A stretch of DNA of 64,000 nucleotides from Verrucomicrobiaceae bacterium (lineage in GTDB: Bacteria; Verrucomicrobiota; Verrucomicrobiia; Verrucomicrobiales; Verrucomicrobiaceae), in NCBI GenBank assembly GCA_016795485.1, contig JAEUHM010000025.1, positions 210,804 through 274,803 of the forward strand, given 5' to 3'. This document shows, one piece after another, positions 56,941-63,562 of this stretch (positions are counted from its first letter, which is position 1; every line of letters begins with the position of its first letter). The notes below the pieces were generated by a model. The model had not been told where the DNA came from and did not search any database. It worked only from the letters and a program-made list of their open reading frames with translations. The position numbers and the translations under genes were made by a program.

Positions 56941-56982
56941 GTTTCTGCACTCTGCCTTGAGTCCTTGCGCGTGCTGGACACA

Positions 56983-59172
56983 ATGGATTCAACCACCGCC
57001 ACTACCCCTTTGGAACCCGAACTGCCAGACTCCGCACCAGACACTAGCCCGCTCATTCATGATGCACGGGCTGCCTTGCAGCAGTACTTCGGTTTCCGCG
57101 ACTTCCTCGATAACCAAGAGAACGTCATCTCCGGCATCCTCTCCGGGCGCGATACCCTGGTCATCATGCCCACCGGCGGTGGTAAGTCCCTCTGCTACCA
57201 ATTGCCCGCCATGGTCATGGAAGGCGTCACCGTTGTGGTCTCGCCACTCATCGCGCTCATGAAGGACCAAGTCGATGCCCTTCAGGCCAAAGGTATCCCC
57301 GCTACCGTCATCAATAGTACCCTCAGCCCCTCGGAGCAGATGGACCGCATCTCCGCGCTGCGTGCGGGTCATTTCAGGCTCGTCTATGTCGCTCCAGAGC
57401 GCTTCCGCCAGCGCTCCTTCGTGGACAGCTTGCGCTCGGTAGACATCGCCCTCTTTGCTGTAGATGAAGCGCACTGTCTCTCGCAGTGGGGACATGATTT
57501 CCGCCCAGACTACCTTCGGCTGCGTGAAGCTCTGGAGAAGCTAGACCGTCCCCAAGTCGTAGCCCTCACTGCCACCGCCACCGCAGATGTCCGTAGCGAC
57601 ATCCTGAAGCATCTCGACATGCGGGAGCCGTTCGTCACCGTCTCCGGTTTCGCTCGGCCAAACCTCAGCTTCAACATCCTACAGACCAAGTCCCACGACG
57701 ACAAGTATCGCCGCCTGGAGGAGATCGTGAACCTCCACCGCACCGGCATCGTCTACTGCTCCACTCGCAAGCGTGTGGAAGAAGTGTGTGACCAACTCGC
57801 CGAGCGCGACATGAGCGTCATCGCCTACCACGGCGGCATGGATGAAAAGGAGCGCGACCGTGCTCAGGAGCTCTTCATCTCGCGCAAAAAAGACATCGCC
57901 GTGGCTACCAACGCCTTCGGCATGGGCATCGACCGCAGTGATGTGCGCTTCGTCATCCACTTTGATGTTCCAGGCTCCATCGAGGCTTATTATCAGGAAG
58001 CAGGACGCGCTGGACGTGATGGCGAGCCCGGTCACTGCGAGCTCTTCTTCAACTTTGCCGACACACGCACCCAGGAGTTCTTCATTGAAGGCAGCAATCC
58101 CTCCTTTGAAGTCATCCGCGATATCTATCAGACCCTGCTCAACCTCTCTGATGAGAAAAACGAGGTAGAAGCCTCCATCGACGACATCACCAACAAGACC
58201 GGGCTCAAGAATAGCATGGCCGTCTCCTCCGCCCTCTCCCTGCTCAACCGGGAAGGCTACATCGAGCGCTACGACATCCCCGGCAAACGCATCCGCGGCA
58301 CCCGCATGCTCCAGCCCAACGTACGCGCCAGAGACCTCCAGCTCGACAAGCAAGCCCTCCAGGAAAAATACAAACGCGACCTCTCCAAGCTCAAGGCCAC
58401 CATCGACTTCTGTTATGCCAACGAGTGCCGCCAGGCCCAGATCCTCCGCTACTTCGGTGAGGAACATCCAGAGACCTGCGGCTCCTGCGACATCTGCCAA
58501 AAGGACAGCACCGCCCCACCACGCCCCGGCACCGCTGAGGAGATCCTCATGCTCCGTCAGGCGCTCAGCGGCATCGCCCGCATGTCCTGGAAGCGCAAAG
58601 ATGGCAACTACGGCGGCCGCTATGGCAAAGGCCGCATCATCGCCATGCTCACCGGCTCACGATCCAAAGACGTGCTGGATGCACGGCTAGACCAGCTCTC
58701 CACCTACGGCTGCCTCAAGTCCCTCGGAGCCCCCGCCTTGCAAATGCTCTTTCAGGAGCTAGAGCGGCACGAGTTCATCGAGACCAACCCTGGCGAATAC
58801 CCCACCCTCGCCCTAACAGACAAAGGCGTCTTCGCCATGAAGCACGGTACCCAGGAGAAACTCCGCTGGCCCGTAGTATCGTCCGCCTCCCTTCCCTTCA
58901 ATCCCACCACCAGCCCCGAGATCAAGACCCGCGAGCTCGGCTGGGATGACGCCCTCTTCAACAAACTCAAGCGCCTCCGCACCGCCCTAGCAGAGTCCAA
59001 CGGGAAACTCTCTTCCAGAATCCTCAGCAATGCAGTCCTGGAATCCCTCACTCGCCTCCAACCCACCACCGTCGAGAGAGCGCTCAGAATCCGTGGCATT
59101 GGCGTGCGAAAAGCCGCCAACTACCTCCCCGACTTCATTCGCGTCATCCAGCAGCACAAAGACGGAAAGTGA
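56983..59172 (+). CDS. recQ: ATP-dependent DNA helicase RecQ
   Basis: A 729-residue RecQ. The order is helicase core (Walker A MPTGGGKSLCYQLP; DEAH box AVDEAHCLSQWGHDFRPDY; motif VI QEAGRAGRDGEPG), RecQ zinc-binding (CYANECRQ and CGSCDIC), winged helix, and an HRDC domain at the end (LFNKLKRLRTALAES through LRIRGIGVRKAANYLPDF). It unwinds DNA in recombination and replication-fork repair. The ATG at 56983 is used; a TTG at 56965 would add six residues. The sirtuin gene follows after 9 bp and may be cotranscribed. Confidence 0.95.
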   Translation: MDSTTATTPLEPELPDSAPDTSPLIHDARAALQQYFGFRDFLDNQENVISGILSGRDTLVIMPTGGGKSLCYQLPAMVMEGVTVVVSPLIALMKDQVDALQAKGIPATVINSTLSPSEQMDRISALRAGHFRLVYVAPERFRQRSFVDSLRSVDIALFAVDEAHCLSQWGHDFRPDYLRLREALEKLDRPQVVALTATATADVRSDILKHLDMREPFVTVSGFARPNLSFNILQTKSHDDKYRRLEEIVNLHRTGIVYCSTRKRVEEVCDQLAERDMSVIAYHGGMDEKERDRAQELFISRKKDIAVATNAFGMGIDRSDVRFVIHFDVPGSIEAYYQEAGRAGRDGEPGHCELFFNFADTRTQEFFIEGSNPSFEVIRDIYQTLLNLSDEKNEVEASIDDITNKTGLKNSMAVSSALSLLNREGYIERYDIPGKRIRGTRMLQPNVRARDLQLDKQALQEKYKRDLSKLKATIDFCYANECRQAQILRYFGEEHPETCGSCDICQKDSTAPPRPGTAEEILMLRQALSGIARMSWKRKDGNYGGRYGKGRIIAMLTGSRSKDVLDARLDQLSTYGCLKSLGAPALQMLFQELERHEFIETNPGEYPTLALTDKGVFAMKHGTQEKLRWPVVSSASLPFNPTTSPEIKTRELGWDDALFNKLKRLRTALAESNGKLSSRILSNAVLESLTRLQPTTVERALRIRGIGVRKAANYLPDFIRVIQQHKDGK

Positions 59173-59181
59173 TTCACCGCC

Positions 59182-59895
59182 ATGGCCGCCAAACCACGAA
59201 TCGTCATCCTCACCGGAGCCGGAGTCTCCGCCGAGTCAGGCGTACCCACCTTCCGCGGCAGTGACGGGCTATGGGAAGGCCACCGCATCGAAGACGTAGC
59301 CACCCCCAGAGCCTTTGAGCGCAATCCCGCCCTGGTACAGACCTTTTACAACCAACGCCGCGCTGCCCTCAAGAACGTCCAGCCCAACGCCGCCCACCTC
59401 GCCCTCGCCGAGTTAGAGAAAGCCCTCGGAGAACGCCACGTCACGCTCATCACCCAGAACGTCGACGACTTGCATGATCGCGCTGGCTCCCAGAACCTCA
59501 TGCACATGCACGGCGAGCTGCTCAAGGCCCGCTGCGTGGTATGCGAAAACGTCTGTCACTGGGACGAAGACATCCAGCCCACGTCCCCCTGCCCTTTTTG
59601 TCAGCGCACCGGCACCCTCCGCCCCCACATCGTCTGGTTTGGAGAGATGCCCCTCTACATGGAAGAAATCGAGACCGCCCTCTACGGCGCGGATCTCTTT
59701 GTCGCCATCGGCACCTCAGGCAAAGTCTATCCCGCCGCCGGCTTCGTCCGCCTCGCCAAAGCCGCCGGAGCCCACACCATCGAGTTCAACCTAGAGCGAA
59801 GTGACATCTCCCCCGAGTTCAAAGAACACCGCATAGGCCCCGCCGGCCACCTAGTCCCCACCTGGGTAGAAGAAGTCATCCAAGCCCATCCGTGA
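59182..59895 (+). CDS. cobB: NAD-dependent protein deacylase (sirtuin, CobB-type)
   Basis: A 237-residue sirtuin. NAD-binding GAGVSAESGVPTFRGSDGLW, catalytic His110 in LMHMHGELL, TQNVDDLHDRAG and the zinc knuckles CVVC (118-121) and CPFC (137-140) are present. Tyr56 and Arg59 in FYNQRR match the Tyr-x-x-Arg pair of sirtuins that remove succinyl and other acidic acyl groups, so desuccinylation is likely besides deacetylation. It follows recQ by 9 bp, and the composite repeat begins 15 bp after its stop. Confidence 0.94.
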   Translation: MAAKPRIVILTGAGVSAESGVPTFRGSDGLWEGHRIEDVATPRAFERNPALVQTFYNQRRAALKNVQPNAAHLALAELEKALGERHVTLITQNVDDLHDRAGSQNLMHMHGELLKARCVVCENVCHWDEDIQPTSPCPFCQRTGTLRPHIVWFGEMPLYMEEIETALYGADLFVAIGTSGKVYPAAGFVRLAKAAGAHTIEFNLERSDISPEFKEHRIGPAGHLVPTWVEEVIQAHP

Positions 59896-59910: not shown

Positions 59911-60095
59911 TGGCAGAAGAATGAAGGCAAAAGCATAATAAACAGGCCCCAACGGAAAACATTCTACTGCCACCATTCTCCTGCCATCCACTCCCCCGTA
60001 ATAAACCGGCGACATTGGCAGAAGAATGACGACAAAAGAATCACAACCAGGCCCCAACCAAAGAACCCATTCTTCTGCCACCACTCTCCTGCCAT
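59911..60095. repeat. Composite palindromic repeat, copy A
   Basis: Two palindromic units (59911-59986 and 60016-60095) joined by a 29-bp linker. In each unit a left half built on GGCAGAAGAATG faces a right half built on CATTCTACTGCC and CATTCTCCTGCC; the second unit ends in the perfect complement CATTCTTCTGCC. A CAGGCCCCAAC core lies in the middle of each. The linker TCCACTCCCCCGTAATAAAC is also found in copy B at 63133-63288. Copy A sits between cobB and the 3' end of the convergent rhodanese gene. Such elements may act as bidirectional terminators or as REP-like mobile units. Confidence 0.85.
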
Positions 60096-60101
60096 CTAAG
60101 C

Positions 60102-61022
60102 TCACCTCGCGTCACCTGCGGCCGTGCCACCCGTTTCGGCGGGGAGGGACTTATTCTCCAGCCAGACGTATTCCTTCCAGGAGCCCTCATACAGGCGGAC
60201 GTTCGGGTATTTGAGCACATGCTTCAGGGTGAAGTAAATGAGACTGCCTTCACGTGAAGTACCGCAGTAGCAAATGATGCTCTTATCCGCTGTGATACCC
60301 GCGCGCTCCAACTCAGCTTTCATCGCATCCAGCGGCTTGAACTGATGAGTGTTGTCACTCTCCATGAGGCGAGCCCAATGAAAGCTGATGGCTCCAGGGA
60401 TGTGACCCTTGCGCAACCACACGTCATCATTGCCTTGATACTCATTCAGCGGACGCGCATCGATCAGCACATTGCCCGGCTTGCTAACGTGCGCTTGCAC
60501 CGTTTTGACATCGACCCCGATGCTGGGGTCACCTTTCTCGGGGAGTTTGCCCGCTGGATTGCCAAAGTAATCTTTTGCAGGCTGCAGTCCCGCCTTCACC
60601 CATCCCGCAAGGCCGCCATCGACGACCCGGATGTTCTGCACGCCAAACTTCTCCAGCACATACACCACCATGCTGGTGCTCAAGATCTCGTCATTGGGCA
60701 ACTTATCGCCCGTGGCGTAAACAAGATGCAGGCGATCTTTGTCCACCCCGGCACGGACCAGCAGAGCGCGCGTAATGTCGTCTGGAAGGTATTGCACAGG
60801 CACAGCTTCGTTGGTGCCGCGCAAGGTATCGAAGTTGATGTGGTGTGCCGTAGGCAAGTGACCGCGGAAGTAGTCTTTGTAGCCGCCACGTGTATCCAGC
60901 ACGATGGGGCGCTGATCTGCATCCGCGTTCTCGATGAGTTTCTTGGCTTCTAACGGTGAAATGAGGCCAATATCTGCCTGAGCAGCAGTGGCGATGAGAA
61001 GGAGTGTAAGGATGGCTTTCAT
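60102..61022 (-). CDS. Periplasmic two-domain rhodanese (sulfurtransferase)
   Basis: A 306-residue protein with a signal peptide (MKAILTLLLIATAAQA), so it acts in the periplasm. The N-terminal rhodanese domain (PIVLDTRGGYKDYFRGHLPTA) has no catalytic Cys; the C-terminal one has Cys253 in SIICYCGTSREGS. This is the standard arrangement of thiosulfate or mercaptopyruvate sulfurtransferases. The ATG at 61022 is used; upstream codons in the open frame precede the signal peptide. It follows the barrel gene by 43 bp, so with the transporter gene it probably makes one transcript moving away from arsR. The context suggests handling of thiosulfate or a related sulfur compound. Confidence 0.88.
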   Translation of the reverse strand: MKAILTLLLIATAAQADIGLISPLEAKKLIENADADQRPIVLDTRGGYKDYFRGHLPTAHHINFDTLRGTNEAVPVQYLPDDITRALLVRAGVDKDRLHLVYATGDKLPNDEILSTSMVVYVLEKFGVQNIRVVDGGLAGWVKAGLQPAKDYFGNPAGKLPEKGDPSIGVDVKTVQAHVSKPGNVLIDARPLNEYQGNDDVWLRKGHIPGAISFHWARLMESDNTHQFKPLDAMKAELERAGITADKSIICYCGTSREGSLIYFTLKHVLKYPNVRLYEGSWKEYVWLENKSLPAETGGTAAGDAR

Positions 61023-61065
61023 GGTTGAACGGTGATTTGGGTTTATGGAGTGGTGGAGGGATGCG

Positions 61066-61749
61066 TTAGAAGGTGAAAACGAAGTTGATCTTCGCGATGG
61101 CGCTGACCTGGCCTTCATCTGGGAGGTTAACCCAGCTCTCGAGCACGATGTGCTTGGTAAGGTCATACTTGGCTCCGAGGGCGGTCATCGTGCCGTCTCC
61201 ATCACGAGTCTGCACGATGTCGGCATTGAGGTTGAGGTTCCGATCGAAGACCTTGAAGTTGCGGTCGATGCCGAACAAGAAACTGTTGCCATTGGTTTGC
61301 AGCCCGTAGCCCGCATGAAGGCGAAAGAGGCCAAAGTCATGACTCAGCATCGCATAGGTGAACGGATCTCCAGCACGATCCATGTCCGTGACGGCTACTC
61401 CGGCGATCCCGAGCGTGAACATGCCATGCTCCCACGGCGAGAAGCGCGCTTTGGTTTGGAAAAACAGCGGCCCGCTTTGATCCACCCCAATTGGGCTATC
61501 CAGACCCCACTCAAGGTGAAACGGCTCAAAGTCCCAGCCCGTCTTGAACCCCATCCAGAAGGAATGCTTGCCATCGCCATTGGCAGCGAACTGATTCAGC
61601 CCGCCAAAGCTGCTAAAAGCCTGCACGGCCACCGTGCGATGCGGCACCGTATCGGTAGTGGGGATGTTGTTCAGGCCGCTTGGCGTGCCAAAGACGGAGC
61701 CGGCGAGCGCAAATGCGGCCAGGACGAGTTTCTTTGTGTTGGTTCTCAT
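61066..61749 (-). CDS. Predicted outer-membrane beta-barrel protein
   Basis: A 227-residue protein with a signal peptide (LVLAAFALAGSVFGTPSG), alternating beta strands rich in aromatic residues at turns (FWMGFKTGWDFEPFHLEWGLDS; ALGAKYDLTKHIVLESWVNL), and a C-terminal phenylalanine in KINFVFTF, the usual recognition end for BAM. The size fits an 8-10-strand barrel or small porin. It starts by ATGA overlap with the transporter gene. It could give the substrate of that transporter a path through the outer membrane; this is inference. No named family was recognised. Confidence 0.75.
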   Translation of the reverse strand: MRTNTKKLVLAAFALAGSVFGTPSGLNNIPTTDTVPHRTVAVQAFSSFGGLNQFAANGDGKHSFWMGFKTGWDFEPFHLEWGLDSPIGVDQSGPLFFQTKARFSPWEHGMFTLGIAGVAVTDMDRAGDPFTYAMLSHDFGLFRLHAGYGLQTNGNSFLFGIDRNFKVFDRNLNLNADIVQTRDGDGTMTALGAKYDLTKHIVLESWVNLPDEGQVSAIAKINFVFTF

Positions 61750-62693
61750 GGGGAAATGATTTTGAAGACGACTGCGGCGACTAAGGCGGACACCGGCAGC
61801 GTGATGACCCACGCGGCCAGCACCGGGACGACAGTCCGCCACTTCGCCTGATGGGTGGTGATTCCGATCCCTAGCAGCGCCCCAACACTCACGTGCGTGG
61901 TTGAAACCGGCAGTCCATGCACGCTGGCAGTCGTCACGAGCAACGCGGTGGCGAGATTTGCCGCAAATCCCTGGCCGGGGTTCATGTCGGTGATCTTGTG
62001 GGCGAGCGTATCCGCCACATGCCTAGCACTGATGAGTCCACCGAGAGCCATCGCCCCAGCCACGAGGATCATCCCCGCGCTGTTTTGGAACCAACCAATG
62101 CCCAGCAGCAGCGCGGCCATTTTGGGCGTGTCATTCAGCCCGCGAGCAAAGCACACCGCACCCGCACTGAGGAAGTGCACGGCATCCAGCGTGCGCGTGC
62201 GGTGATCTGGTGCGAGGCGCACAGCTTTCAACCCAAGGTAAAGCACCGAGCCCGCAGCCACAGCAATCAGCGGACTCATCAACAGCGGCTGCAAAAACGC
62301 CTCCCACAGTTTCCCCACGTTCACCTCACCCGCCATCCAGCCCGCGCCCAGCAGTCCACCGGTCAGCATGTGCGTCGTAGACACAGGAAATCCAAAGCGC
62401 GTGGCCAACACCCCAGTCAACCCAGCTCCACCCGCCACAGCCAACAGAAAAGCCGGTTGAGCAATCAGGTTATCCGGGACCAACCCCTTCCCCGAGAACG
62501 CCTTCAACATCGTCGCCGCCAACCCCACTGCAGCTAGGCAACCTGCAGCCGTCGTGATCGCAGCCCAATGCACCGCCGTGCGGTAAGTCGTCGTCCCGCT
62601 GCCATACAGAGAGGCCACTCCTTTGAAATTAGCGTTCGCTCCATTGGCATAAGCGACAGCCAGGGCAGCAATGAGAATGGAGGCGGTGAGCAC
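61746..62693 (-). CDS. PiT-family anion permease
   Basis: A 315-residue inner-membrane transporter of the PiT (PF01384) family, which includes phosphate carriers and the CysP-type sulfate permease. The two repeats show NGANANFKG at residue 17 and FARGLNDTPKM in the second half, and each is followed by the conserved PVSTTH block (FGFPVSTTHMLTGG; HGLPVSTTHVSVGALLG). The first repeat has Asn where Pi carriers usually have the Asp of GANDVANA. The GTG at 62693 (MLTASILIAALAVAYANG) is chosen as it starts the first helix; upstream is the promoter region with operator dyads. Phosphate or sulfur oxyanion is the likely cargo. Confidence 0.85.
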   Translation of the reverse strand: MLTASILIAALAVAYANGANANFKGVASLYGSGTTTYRTAVHWAAITTAAGCLAAVGLAATMLKAFSGKGLVPDNLIAQPAFLLAVAGGAGLTGVLATRFGFPVSTTHMLTGGLLGAGWMAGEVNVGKLWEAFLQPLLMSPLIAVAAGSVLYLGLKAVRLAPDHRTRTLDAVHFLSAGAVCFARGLNDTPKMAALLLGIGWFQNSAGMILVAGAMALGGLISARHVADTLAHKITDMNPGQGFAANLATALLVTTASVHGLPVSTTHVSVGALLGIGITTHQAKWRTVVPVLAAWVITLPVSALVAAVVFKIISP

Positions 62694-62710
62694 GAGGCGA
62701 GCGAGAGTTA

Positions 62711-62774
62711 ATATGCTTAGTTCGGCATATAACGAACGAGCGCAAGACCTTATTTGCGCATTTTGGCATATAAT
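62711..62774. promoter_or_regulatory. Divergent promoter with twin dyads, candidate ArsR operators
   Basis: Two inverted repeats with the same layout, 6-bp arms around an 8-base spacer: ATATGC...GCATAT at 62711-62730 and GCGCAA...TTGCGC at 62740-62759. A TATAAT at 62769-62774 fits a -10 element for arsR; the second dyad would lie over its -35 to -10 spacer. GGCATATAA also occurs twice as a direct repeat, at 62724 and 62765. Matched dyads between a divergent arsR and its target are the usual ArsR operator arrangement. The exact binding site is not proven. Confidence 0.6.
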
Positions 62775-62817
62775 GGCTTCGCTTGCCGCCATCCCCTGCC
62801 TCCGCTAGCTATGCAGA

Positions 62818-63123
62818 GTGAAAAAGTTCAACTGCATCCCTGCCATGAAGGCGCTGAGCGACGAGAGTCGCCTGCGTATCATTCGTTTGCTGATGCAAGG
62901 CCAGCACAGCGTGAACGAGATCGGCGAGTCCGCAGGCCTAACCCAATACAACGTCTCCAAACACCTCCGCATCCTCCGGGAGGCAGGCCTTGTGGAGCAA
63001 GAGAAGAGCCGCCAACAAAGACTCTACTCCCTCGCCGCAGCCTTCACCGAGCATCTGGCAGAAAACAAAAACGTCCTCGATCTAGGCTGCTGCCAGTTCG
63101 ACTTCACCAAACTGCCCAAGTAA
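62818..63123 (+). CDS. ArsR/SmtB-family transcription regulator
   Basis: A 101-residue winged-helix repressor (ALSDESRLRIIRLLMQ; VNEIGESAGLTQYNVSKHLRILREAGLVEQEKSRQQRLY). The start is a GTG at 62818. The arsenic CxxC or zinc ligands of classical ArsR/SmtB are missing. Three cysteines remain, Cys6 and the pair Cys91-Cys92 in LDLGCCQFDF at the C-terminus, so a thiol-based or C-terminal metal sensor is plausible. It diverges from the transporter gene and should repress it and itself. The signal could be a metal, persulfide or sulfur species. Confidence 0.9.
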   Translation: MKKFNCIPAMKALSDESRLRIIRLLMQGQHSVNEIGESAGLTQYNVSKHLRILREAGLVEQEKSRQQRLYSLAAAFTEHLAENKNVLDLGCCQFDFTKLPK

Positions 63124-63132
63124 CCCCCAGAC

Positions 63133-63288
63133 TTGGCAACAGAATAGCCAAGAGGCCCAAAAAAACATTCTACTGCCACCATTCTACTGCCATCCACTCC
63201 CCCGTAATAAACCGGCAACATTGGCAACAGAATAACAAATAGGCCCCAACCAACGAAAACATTCTGCTGTCACCCATTCTGTTGCCAA
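63133..63288. repeat. Composite palindromic repeat, copy B
   Basis: The second copy of the composite repeat, in the same orientation as copy A. The first unit spans 63133-63192 and the second 63221-63288, with the same linker (TCCACTCCCCCGTAATAAAC, then CGGCAACAT). Here the arms read TTGGCAACAGAAT and ATTCTGTTGCCAA, a perfect 13-bp palindrome around AGGCCCCAAC. It starts 10 bp after the arsR stop. Copies A and B thus bracket the four genes from rhodanese to arsR. It may end the arsR message or mark a mobile unit. Confidence 0.85.
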
Positions 63289-63304: not shown

Positions 63305-63562
63305 CTAGCGTCTCATCGCTAGGATCAGCTCATCGAGCTTTTGCAGCACTGCCTGCATCTGATTCTGATCATAGGCAGCGTCAGCGTTCATGTTCAGCGT
63401 GGAGACTTGGTTCGTGTTGGCGCTGGTGCCCTGGATGGCGGTATTTAGCTCATCCGTCGTGGCACGGGTCTGGATGTCGTCGTTGAGGGCATTGAGTTGG
63501 TCCCGCATCACCTGAGAGGAGAGCGAGGAGCCATTGGCGGGTTGGGCAGGGTCAAAGGGCAT
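63305..63562 (-). CDS. Small helical protein of unknown function
   Basis: An 85-residue protein without signal peptide. It has Asn-, Gln- and Ala-rich helices with heptad-like spacing (QVMRDQLNALNDDIQTRATTDELNTAIQGTSANTNQVSTL; QAVLQKLDELILAMRR) that suggest a coiled coil. Similar small proteins occur near phage tail genes, but nothing else phage-like is here. It sits between repeat copy B and the 22-bp tandem array. The family is not recognised. Confidence 0.6.
   Translation of the reverse strand: MPFDPAQPANGSSLSSQVMRDQLNALNDDIQTRATTDELNTAIQGTSANTNQVSTLNMNADAAYDQNQMQAVLQKLDELILAMRR

Follow-up and report, generated by a model that had tools for sequence, protein, structure and literature searches.

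A PiT permease linked to a rhodanese beside an ArsR-type regulator in Verrucomicrobiota, and its possible connection with arsenic-sulfur oxyanions

Near one end of a 64,000-nt stretch of DNA from a Verrucomicrobiaceae bacterium (GenBank assembly GCA_016795485.1, contig JAEUHM010000025.1, positions 210,804 to 274,803; hereafter the window, which ends at the end of contig C3 of its genome, G000), an ArsR-family repressor gene diverges from three genes encoding a PiT-family permease, a predicted exported barrel with a C-terminal Phe and a predicted periplasmic two-domain rhodanese with Cys253. All of these were located where an initial annotation of the sequence had reported them, with Pfam matches above cut-off for regulator, permease and rhodanese, and the ATGA overlap by which it had joined the permease and barrel genes is present at 61746-61749. 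All four are genuine genes that form a group, and it is their conservation in relatives, not the repeats on either side, which defines the unit. Furthermore, the replacement of a conserved Asp by Ala in the permease and the partnership with the rhodanese map to the same branch of the permease tree. Our tentative reading, to which we give a probability of about 0.4, is that the module may be an arsenic-responsive envelope system for a thio-oxyanion, likely an arsenic-sulfur compound such as monothioarsenate, under an ArsR likely released by trivalent arsenic.

Linkage of the permease to the rhodanese

The survey covered 288 genomes of the order. PiT matches of at least 350 bits (at least 58% identity) occur in 38 of them, that of G153 being interrupted by a contig end; with G200, whose match is in two pieces, 39 genomes have a strong or near-full match, and six further D-type (GAND) genomes with weaker two-piece matches stand outside this number. 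Subtracting G209 and G062, which are GAND genomes, leaves 37 of the GANA type; for G153 and G200 the motif was confirmed as GANA. At an E-value of 1e-60 the rhodanese was found in 44 of all 288 genomes; in 34 of the 37 GANA-type genomes it shares a contig with the permease gene and is no more than 2.4 kb away from it (Fisher p 9e-32, uncorrected for kinship). Contig ends account for two exceptions (G044, G153), and the third, G011, has rhodanese fragments only. The rhodanese is absent from all eight D-type genomes examined. This linkage bears out the view of the initial annotation that the four genes form one unit, and the outcome that it had named as damaging, a neighbourhood not conserved in relatives, did not occur.

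Forty loci were mapped, namely those of 36 of the 38 strong-match genomes (leaving aside the window itself and G153) and four two-piece ones. A barrel gene is found in 27 of the 32 rhodanese-bearing loci among L050-L085; at L080 and L084 a TonB-dependent receptor adjoins the permease in its place, and L069, L075 and L082 have neither within the stretch. An ArsR ortholog is present within about 6 kb at 22 of the 40 loci and a COG0523 GTPase at 17, some loci reaching the end of their stretch. The named records that contain the rhodanese belong to Verrucomicrobiota and Planctomycetota, e.g. Brevifollis gellanilyticus, Verrucomicrobium sp. and Zavarzinella formosa. In 35 named loci the permease gene precedes the rhodanese gene 20 times, follows it 11 times and is missing four times; since the pair occurs in either order, it has been retained through rearrangement. 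Four loci (L116, L128, L131, L133) belong to bins named Klebsiella, Kuenenia, Akkermansia and Bacteroidales, but their copies group with those of Planctomycetota and Verrucomicrobiota, and the names or the binning are probably wrong. The combination of these four families was not described in the literature searched, which covered the gene combination, arsenosugar clusters, PiT structure, CysP and ArsR cysteines.

The permease is a clear PiT family member (PF01384, 184.8 bits, cut-off 33.7). In its first motif the Asp of GANDVANA, which aligns with the GANDVAN Asp of TmPiT (6l85), is replaced by Ala21, and the second motif (GLND) retains its Asp. According to the part of PMC5840216 that was available, phosphate transport requires both Asp residues, and neither is kept in CysP. 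The window permease thus departs from the phosphate-carrying type at the first of the two positions. It resembles CysP of Bacillus subtilis as a short PiT protein that is missing a conserved Asp, but in CysP both are replaced (by Gly and Asn, as given in the same excerpt of PMC5840216). Against the CysP family NF053884 it scores 73.8 bits where the cut-off is 400, and the housekeeping PiT of the same genome scores 68.8. Membership in the CysP branch, considered in the initial annotation, is therefore rejected, and with the first Asp lost and the second kept the protein is neither a standard phosphate carrier nor a CysP. Close kinship with the housekeeping phosphate PiTs is rejected as well: these, including the one from the window genome, keep the Asp, share 27-31% identity with the window permease and stand apart in the tree. 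The tight clustering with phosphate carriers that would have spoken against the initial annotation was thus not observed.

When 60 PiT sequences were compared, the first-motif residue was Ala in all 44 that are linked to a rhodanese and Asp in 14 of the other 16, among them four housekeeping PiTs; the two remaining Ala sequences are L063 (from G011, with its rhodanese fragments) and L070 (at a contig end). On the tree of these sequences the Ala/Asp difference requires one change and the rhodanese label three. The branch that unites the Ala sequences has a support of 89, which comes from the Shimodaira-Hasegawa-like approximate likelihood ratio test (SH-aLRT) only and from a quick search, and the long branches of Cupriavidus, Acinetobacter and G161 are placed uncertainly. 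Grouping by motif (46 Ala against 7 Asp, leaving out L089, L162 and L163, all three of which have Asp in the 60-sequence tree) showed only one more site, Leu/Met, that splits the groups. For the Ala/Asp site itself such groups are circular, therefore the rhodanese label was used instead.

The rhodanese belongs to its superfamily by two stretches matching PF00581 (92.1 bits). Cys253, which alignment with solved rhodaneses identifies as the active-site cysteine, is kept in 47 of 47 sequences and throughout a 42-row alignment, in which His55, 61, 99, 207, 215 and 226 and the loop YCGTSREGS are also invariant. With the 3-mercaptopyruvate sulfurtransferase profile NF008557 it reaches 102.2 bits, the curated cut-off being 250. 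Its structural model (mean predicted local distance difference test, pLDDT, 80.4) matches two-domain sulfurtransferases, among them 1urh of E. coli and the Thermus thermophilus rhodanese 1uar, which likewise have the active Cys in the second domain (template modelling scores 0.73 and 0.75); the window protein differs from both by its signal peptide, the loop CGTSREGS and the six invariant His. The barrel was modelled with 12 predicted strands (pLDDT 83.9), in keeping with the exported barrel of the initial annotation and with a predicted 12-stranded channel. The model resembles 12-stranded channels (KdgM, NanC, a COG4313 channel) and autotransporter barrels equally, and since several kinds of 12-strand barrel head the fold list, no family was assigned.

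The ArsR-type regulator and its candidate operator

The regulator is a member of the ArsR/SmtB family (PF01022, 52.6 bits, cut-off 22; NF033788, 78 bits, cut-off 55), with sequence matches to CzrA, CadC and CmtR chains. The BigR operon, which joins an ArsR-family sulfur sensor to a rhodanese-type enzyme and a permease, resembles the window module in this grouping of an ArsR regulator, a rhodanese and an anion permease; however, its permease is of another family, and the window ArsR scores 43.3 bits with the BigR profile NF040642, whose curated cut-off is 155. The cysteines of BigR are also at other positions. Cys6, Cys91 and Cys92, the latter two in a C-terminal LGCC, are kept in 27 of 27 aligned orthologs (one fragment of 11 amino acids was excluded). 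Published As(III) sensors have three cysteines at varied places, and a methyl-As(III) sensor has two, as the accessible text of PMC11868830 describes. With R773 ArsR, AfArsR, CgArsR and ArArsR, as presented there, the window protein shares the ArsR fold and three conserved cysteines, and with AfArsR also the C-terminal CC pair (PMC11868830). Its third cysteine, near the N-terminus, sets it apart from all four, so that in a comparison of positions and motifs, not of structures, the placement matches none of them.

Two copies of a palindrome, TTATWTGC-N8-GCAWATAA, precede the permease gene. With up to two mismatches allowed, this pattern has three sites in the 6.5-Mb genome, two of them before the operon, and the reversed pattern used as a control has one; since the control also yields one, the additional site (L171) is probably due to chance. 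Across 53 stretches (627 kb) 41 matches were obtained, all within 200 nt upstream of a queried gene: 40 precede a permease, GTPase, ArsR or barrel gene and one a sugar-dehydrogenase-like gene (L071). The pattern was read partly from promoters that were later scanned, which weakens this count as support for the proposed reading; the whole-genome scan is therefore the less biased part. It covered 43 genomes and gave 29 sites for the exact inner pattern and none for its reversed form. Of the 29, 22 are at a permease or GTPase locus, three are beside an ArsR gene with a GTPase or TonB receptor gene, and four (L167, L170, L165, L169) adjoin no ArsR, GTPase, PiT or TonB gene. Two of the four, in related genomes, are about 175-180 nt upstream of the same pyrroloquinoline quinone (PQQ)-like gene (L167:1089-3374 and L170:3688-5976), whose products have 178 of the first 200 residues alike, and these sites may be real. 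In G162, where no permease gene is in the stretch, a site lies upstream of the barrel and rhodanese genes.

In relatives the operator also precedes genes for the COG0523 GTPase (PF02492, motif GGCFCC) and for TonB-dependent receptors. Both are predicted further members of the module or regulon there and had, like the operator, been overlooked by the initial annotation. A tail of the form C-x-PGS-x-CC is found in 10 of 21 GTPase matches, and two more (one locus counted twice) have a similar one; in L051, L064 and L065 a DUF6428 protein of an ars operon carries a tail like it. The GTPase of the window genome itself (C7, 71% identity to that of a relative) is without the tail, and it was rejected as a regulon member, since no operator with up to three mismatches was found in its 15-kb stretch. 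TonB-dependent receptors were seen beside this type of ArsR or in place of the barrel in L164, L168, L080 and L084, two of them adjoining an operator. At L073 an Asp-bearing PiT has the same setting of ArsR, GTPase and operator, followed not by barrel and rhodanese but by a Porin_O_P porin (L073:6970-8205; 43.2 bits, cut-off 20.9).

Arsenic genes and the candidate substrate

In the tree of 60 sequences the window permease nests in a clade with PiTs of arsenosugar gene clusters, namely those of Acinetobacter portensis (WP_248103648.1), Cupriavidus KK10, L086, L087 and L163. It shares 39.8% identity over 90% of its length with the A. portensis protein and 63% with that of L086. These relatives have GAND and a central loop rich in cysteines, with CC in Cupriavidus and CxC in the other four, and we saw no rhodanese with them, whereas the window permease has GANA, no such loop and a rhodanese. 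Six of the ten D-type, non-housekeeping PiTs outside the window clade adjoin arsenic genes. On the Acinetobacter plasmid the permease stands with ArsS, two arsenosugar glycosyltransferases and an ArsM-like methyltransferase, in Cupriavidus with an ArsM-like gene and ArsS. In total, ArsM-like genes and ArsS accompany five of these permeases (L086, L087, L143, L144 and L163); ArsS is above cut-off in L086, L144, L163 and the genome of L087, and in L143 it is annotated as such, and the ArsM-like scores are below cut-off. ArsC-like genes complete the set in L086, where all four kinds of gene are together, and near the permeases of L087 and L163, and one is beside the permease in L162. Arsenosugar and arsenic clusters thus repeatedly contain or adjoin a PiT (L086, L087, L143, L144, L162, L163), and most of these PiTs have a cysteine-rich ETC[VIL]C[VIL]G-like central loop; no paper on this recurrence was found in the literature searched. 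CxC in this loop is present in 7 of the 10 D-type PiTs and in none of the 46 Ala sequences.

Among 35 GANA-type genomes, five (G049, G139, G176, G099, G165) have an ArsC-like gene within 5 kb, and G033 has one at 10 kb. As G049 and G139 on the one hand and G176 and G099 on the other look like shared arrangements, three independent ones were counted, against about 0.07 expected (P about 5e-5, simple Poisson). At L131 an ArsC-like gene, and ArsD and ArsA above cut-off, are beside the permease-rhodanese pair. ArsS above cut-off is present in 5 of 43 genomes, three of them D-type PiT genomes, but not in G000; an arsenosugar pathway in the window genome was therefore rejected. A rhodanese operon next to arx and ars genes was up at 5 mM As(III) in one Thioalkalivibrio but not in a second species, as stated in the available sections of PMC6620896.

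In our preferred reading the ArsR with its three conserved cysteines would bind the palindrome until As(III) or methyl-As(III) releases it. Passage of the substrate across the outer membrane would be the task of the barrel, whose place would be taken in some relatives by a TonB receptor or porin O/P; the periplasmic rhodanese would transfer sulfane sulfur to or from this substrate, and the permease would bring the resulting compound into the cell. Which way transport and sulfur transfer run is guesswork. Conversion of thiosulfate to sulfite and of monothioarsenate to arsenite are chemically alike reactions, and monothioarsenate and thiosulfate are called structurally similar in the portion of PMC6620896 at hand. 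A carrier lineage found with arsenic genes would have gained a sulfurtransferase partner and lost its phosphate determinant on the same branch. Since the phosphate-essential Asp is missing and the partner transfers sulfur, the module would handle a sulfur-bearing relative of phosphate, and an arsenic-sulfur oxyanion would, judged from the sequences, be the simplest substrate to unite both themes, with thiosulfate or sulfate as the main rival.

Several observations weigh against this reading. For four of the ten D-type PiTs (L073, L085, L088, L089) the stretch read contains no arsenic gene, and 30 of the 35 GANA-type genomes, the window's included, have no ArsC-like gene within 5 kb, although some contigs are short. 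The ars genes of the window genome (ArsR-type, DUF6428, aquaporin, ArsC-like) are on another contig, C19, and the ArsC-like proteins score 133-151 bits where the family cut-off is 174. The permease gene is missing in 10 of the 44 rhodanese genomes; in at least three of these, G052, G162 and G184, the ArsR, barrel and rhodanese genes are together and no permease gene is in the stretch, so that it is either dispensable or past a contig end. The operator with up to two mismatches is missing in 24 of the 53 stretches, including all five Planctomycetota-type ones scanned, and its inner pattern is unmatched in 19 of the 43 genomes. A second ArsR in L123 has LGRC instead of LGCC. Cousins of the rhodanese on cyanobacterial plasmids (36-38% identity) have sulfur-assimilation genes around them and no arsenic genes. 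Finally, it would be physiologically odd for a repressor that arsenic releases to govern the import of an arsenic compound, and the COG0523 GTPase and TonB receptors would also suit metal uptake.

These points bear differently on the rival explanations. Plain uptake of thiosulfate or sulfate, controlled by an ArsR that senses persulfides or thiols, with arsenic genes nearby only through a shared thiol response, is close to what the initial annotation proposed and seems to us rather unlikely. It would agree with a rhodanese fold nearest to thiosulfate and mercaptopyruvate sulfurtransferases, with the absence of the first phosphate Asp, which CysP lacks too, and with the cyanobacterial rhodanese cousins, which adjoin YeeE/YedE and an arylsulfatase, or cysE, cysK and cysA; but the permease nests among PiTs of arsenosugar clusters, keeps its second Asp and scores far below the CysP cut-off, the ArsR is well under that of BigR, and arsenic genes repeatedly adjoin the module, in several different arrangements. 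The idea of a sulfur compound is plausible and partly supported, and what it overlooked is the arsenic context, in the permease clade as in the nearby genes. Homeostasis of a metal, with an ArsR sensing thiophilic metals, the COG0523 protein as metallochaperone, TonB-dependent uptake of metal complexes and a PiT carrying metal-phosphate, would explain why GTPase and TonB receptor genes stand beside the same operator and why the ArsR matches CzrA, CadC and CmtR. We consider it quite improbable, as it gives no role to a periplasmic rhodanese and is at odds with the lost phosphate Asp and with the arsenic context of the permease clade; moreover, ArsR-family repressors are generally released by metal, which is the wrong sign for an uptake system.

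The least probable of these explanations, and in our view a very improbable one, takes the permease for a phosphate carrier that is made when arsenate blocks the usual one. Membership in the PiT family speaks for it, as does the Asp-bearing relative at L073 with its Porin_O_P porin, and in the accessible part of PMC6620896 the pst genes of a Thioalkalivibrio, though not its Pit gene, are up under arsenite. Against it, the Asp is lost in 44 of 44 rhodanese-linked permeases and kept in the four housekeeping PiTs, and the rhodanese would have no place.

The arsenic-sulfur reading can also be put more boldly, in a form that we regard as speculative and unlikely to hold in full: a dedicated thioarsenate system, in which an arsenic PiT carrier would have switched its substrate by the Asp-to-Ala change on gaining the rhodanese, arsenic would cross the membrane, in or out, as a thio-anion with the rhodanese swapping the sulfur, and a new, three-cysteine type of ArsR with its own operator would govern a regulon including the COG0523 GTPase and exchangeable outer-membrane ports.

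Setting and significance of the module

The features of the locus are listed in Table 1. GTG 62693 is most likely the start of the permease gene; numbering from the alternative start at 62699 adds two residues, so that Ala21 is residue 23 there. The barrel model includes one additional leading residue, with an effect on numbering only, and the signal peptides of barrel and rhodanese were judged by eye.

Table 1. Features of the module and of its flanks in the window
Feature	Position	Strand	Details
ArsR-family repressor	62818..63123	+	101 aa, GTG start; PF01022, NF033788 above cut-off
PiT-family permease	61746..62693	-	315 aa, GTG start 62693; PF01384; motifs GANA, GLND
Ala21 codon	62631..62633	-	replaces Asp of GANDVANA; aligns with GANDVAN Asp of TmPiT 6l85
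Predicted exported barrel	61066..61749	-	227 aa, C-terminal Phe; model mean pLDDT 83.9
Predicted periplasmic two-domain rhodanese	60102..61022	-	306 aa, loop CGTSREGS; PF00581
Cys253 codon	60264..60266	-	active-site cysteine by alignment with solved rhodaneses
Predicted ArsR operator 1	62750..62773	.	TTATTTGCGCATTTTGGCATATAA, zero mismatches to TTATWTGC-N8-GCAWATAA
Predicted ArsR operator 2	62709..62732	.	one mismatch, about 15 nt upstream of PiT start
Dispersed palindromic intergenic repeat, left copies	59911-59972, 60016-60080 (span to 60094)	.	outside module
Dispersed palindromic intergenic repeat, right copies	63134-63178, 63222-63287	.	outside module

The same repeat does occur on both sides of the module, as the initial annotation had noticed (93% identity over 75 nt, spacing 3206 nt). 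Its short core motif has 11 matches in the window against 0.64 expected; the 75-nt stretch is matched 17 times in the genome of 6.5 Mb, three of these in the window, and the palindromic form nine times, with two overlapping matches, giving eight places on contigs C2, C3, C6 and C40, four of them in the window. The repeat has the ends TGGCAGNAGAATG/CATTCTNCTGCCA and is similar to repetitive extragenic palindromic (REP) elements or miniature inverted-repeat transposable elements (MITEs), with copies also on C2, C6, C40 and C46. An intergenic element dispersed in this way does not mark out a unit by standing on both sides of it, and the repeats were rejected as unit borders.

To the left, before the repeat, a RecQ helicase gene (56965-59172) is followed after a 9-nt gap by a Sir2 deacetylase gene (59182-59895), both above Pfam cut-offs. 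They were rejected as members of the module: the 40 loci have only a RecQ-like helicase at 26%, in two of them. To the right, an 85-aa open reading frame (DQLNALNDDIQTRATTDELNTAIQ..., 63305-63562, minus strand) adjoins the repeat; a second copy, near-identical in its C-terminal two thirds, is beside another repeat pair on contig C40 (L140:3411-3665, minus strand). From 63660 to the contig end at 64000 there are imperfect GC-rich repeats with units of about 22 nt and many GGTGGT/ACCACC.

The consulted part of PMC6620896 mentions a proposed action of Sox enzymes on thioarsenate, and a narrow search of the open-access literature found no rhodanese and permease dedicated to this compound. In the module described here a new partner and a probably altered substrate are connected through one residue on one branch, and this opens PiT specificity to direct testing. 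Furthermore, PiT permeases become tied to arsenosugar clusters, and the ArsR family gains a cysteine pattern outside the four described in the available text of PMC11868830, together with a defined candidate operator.

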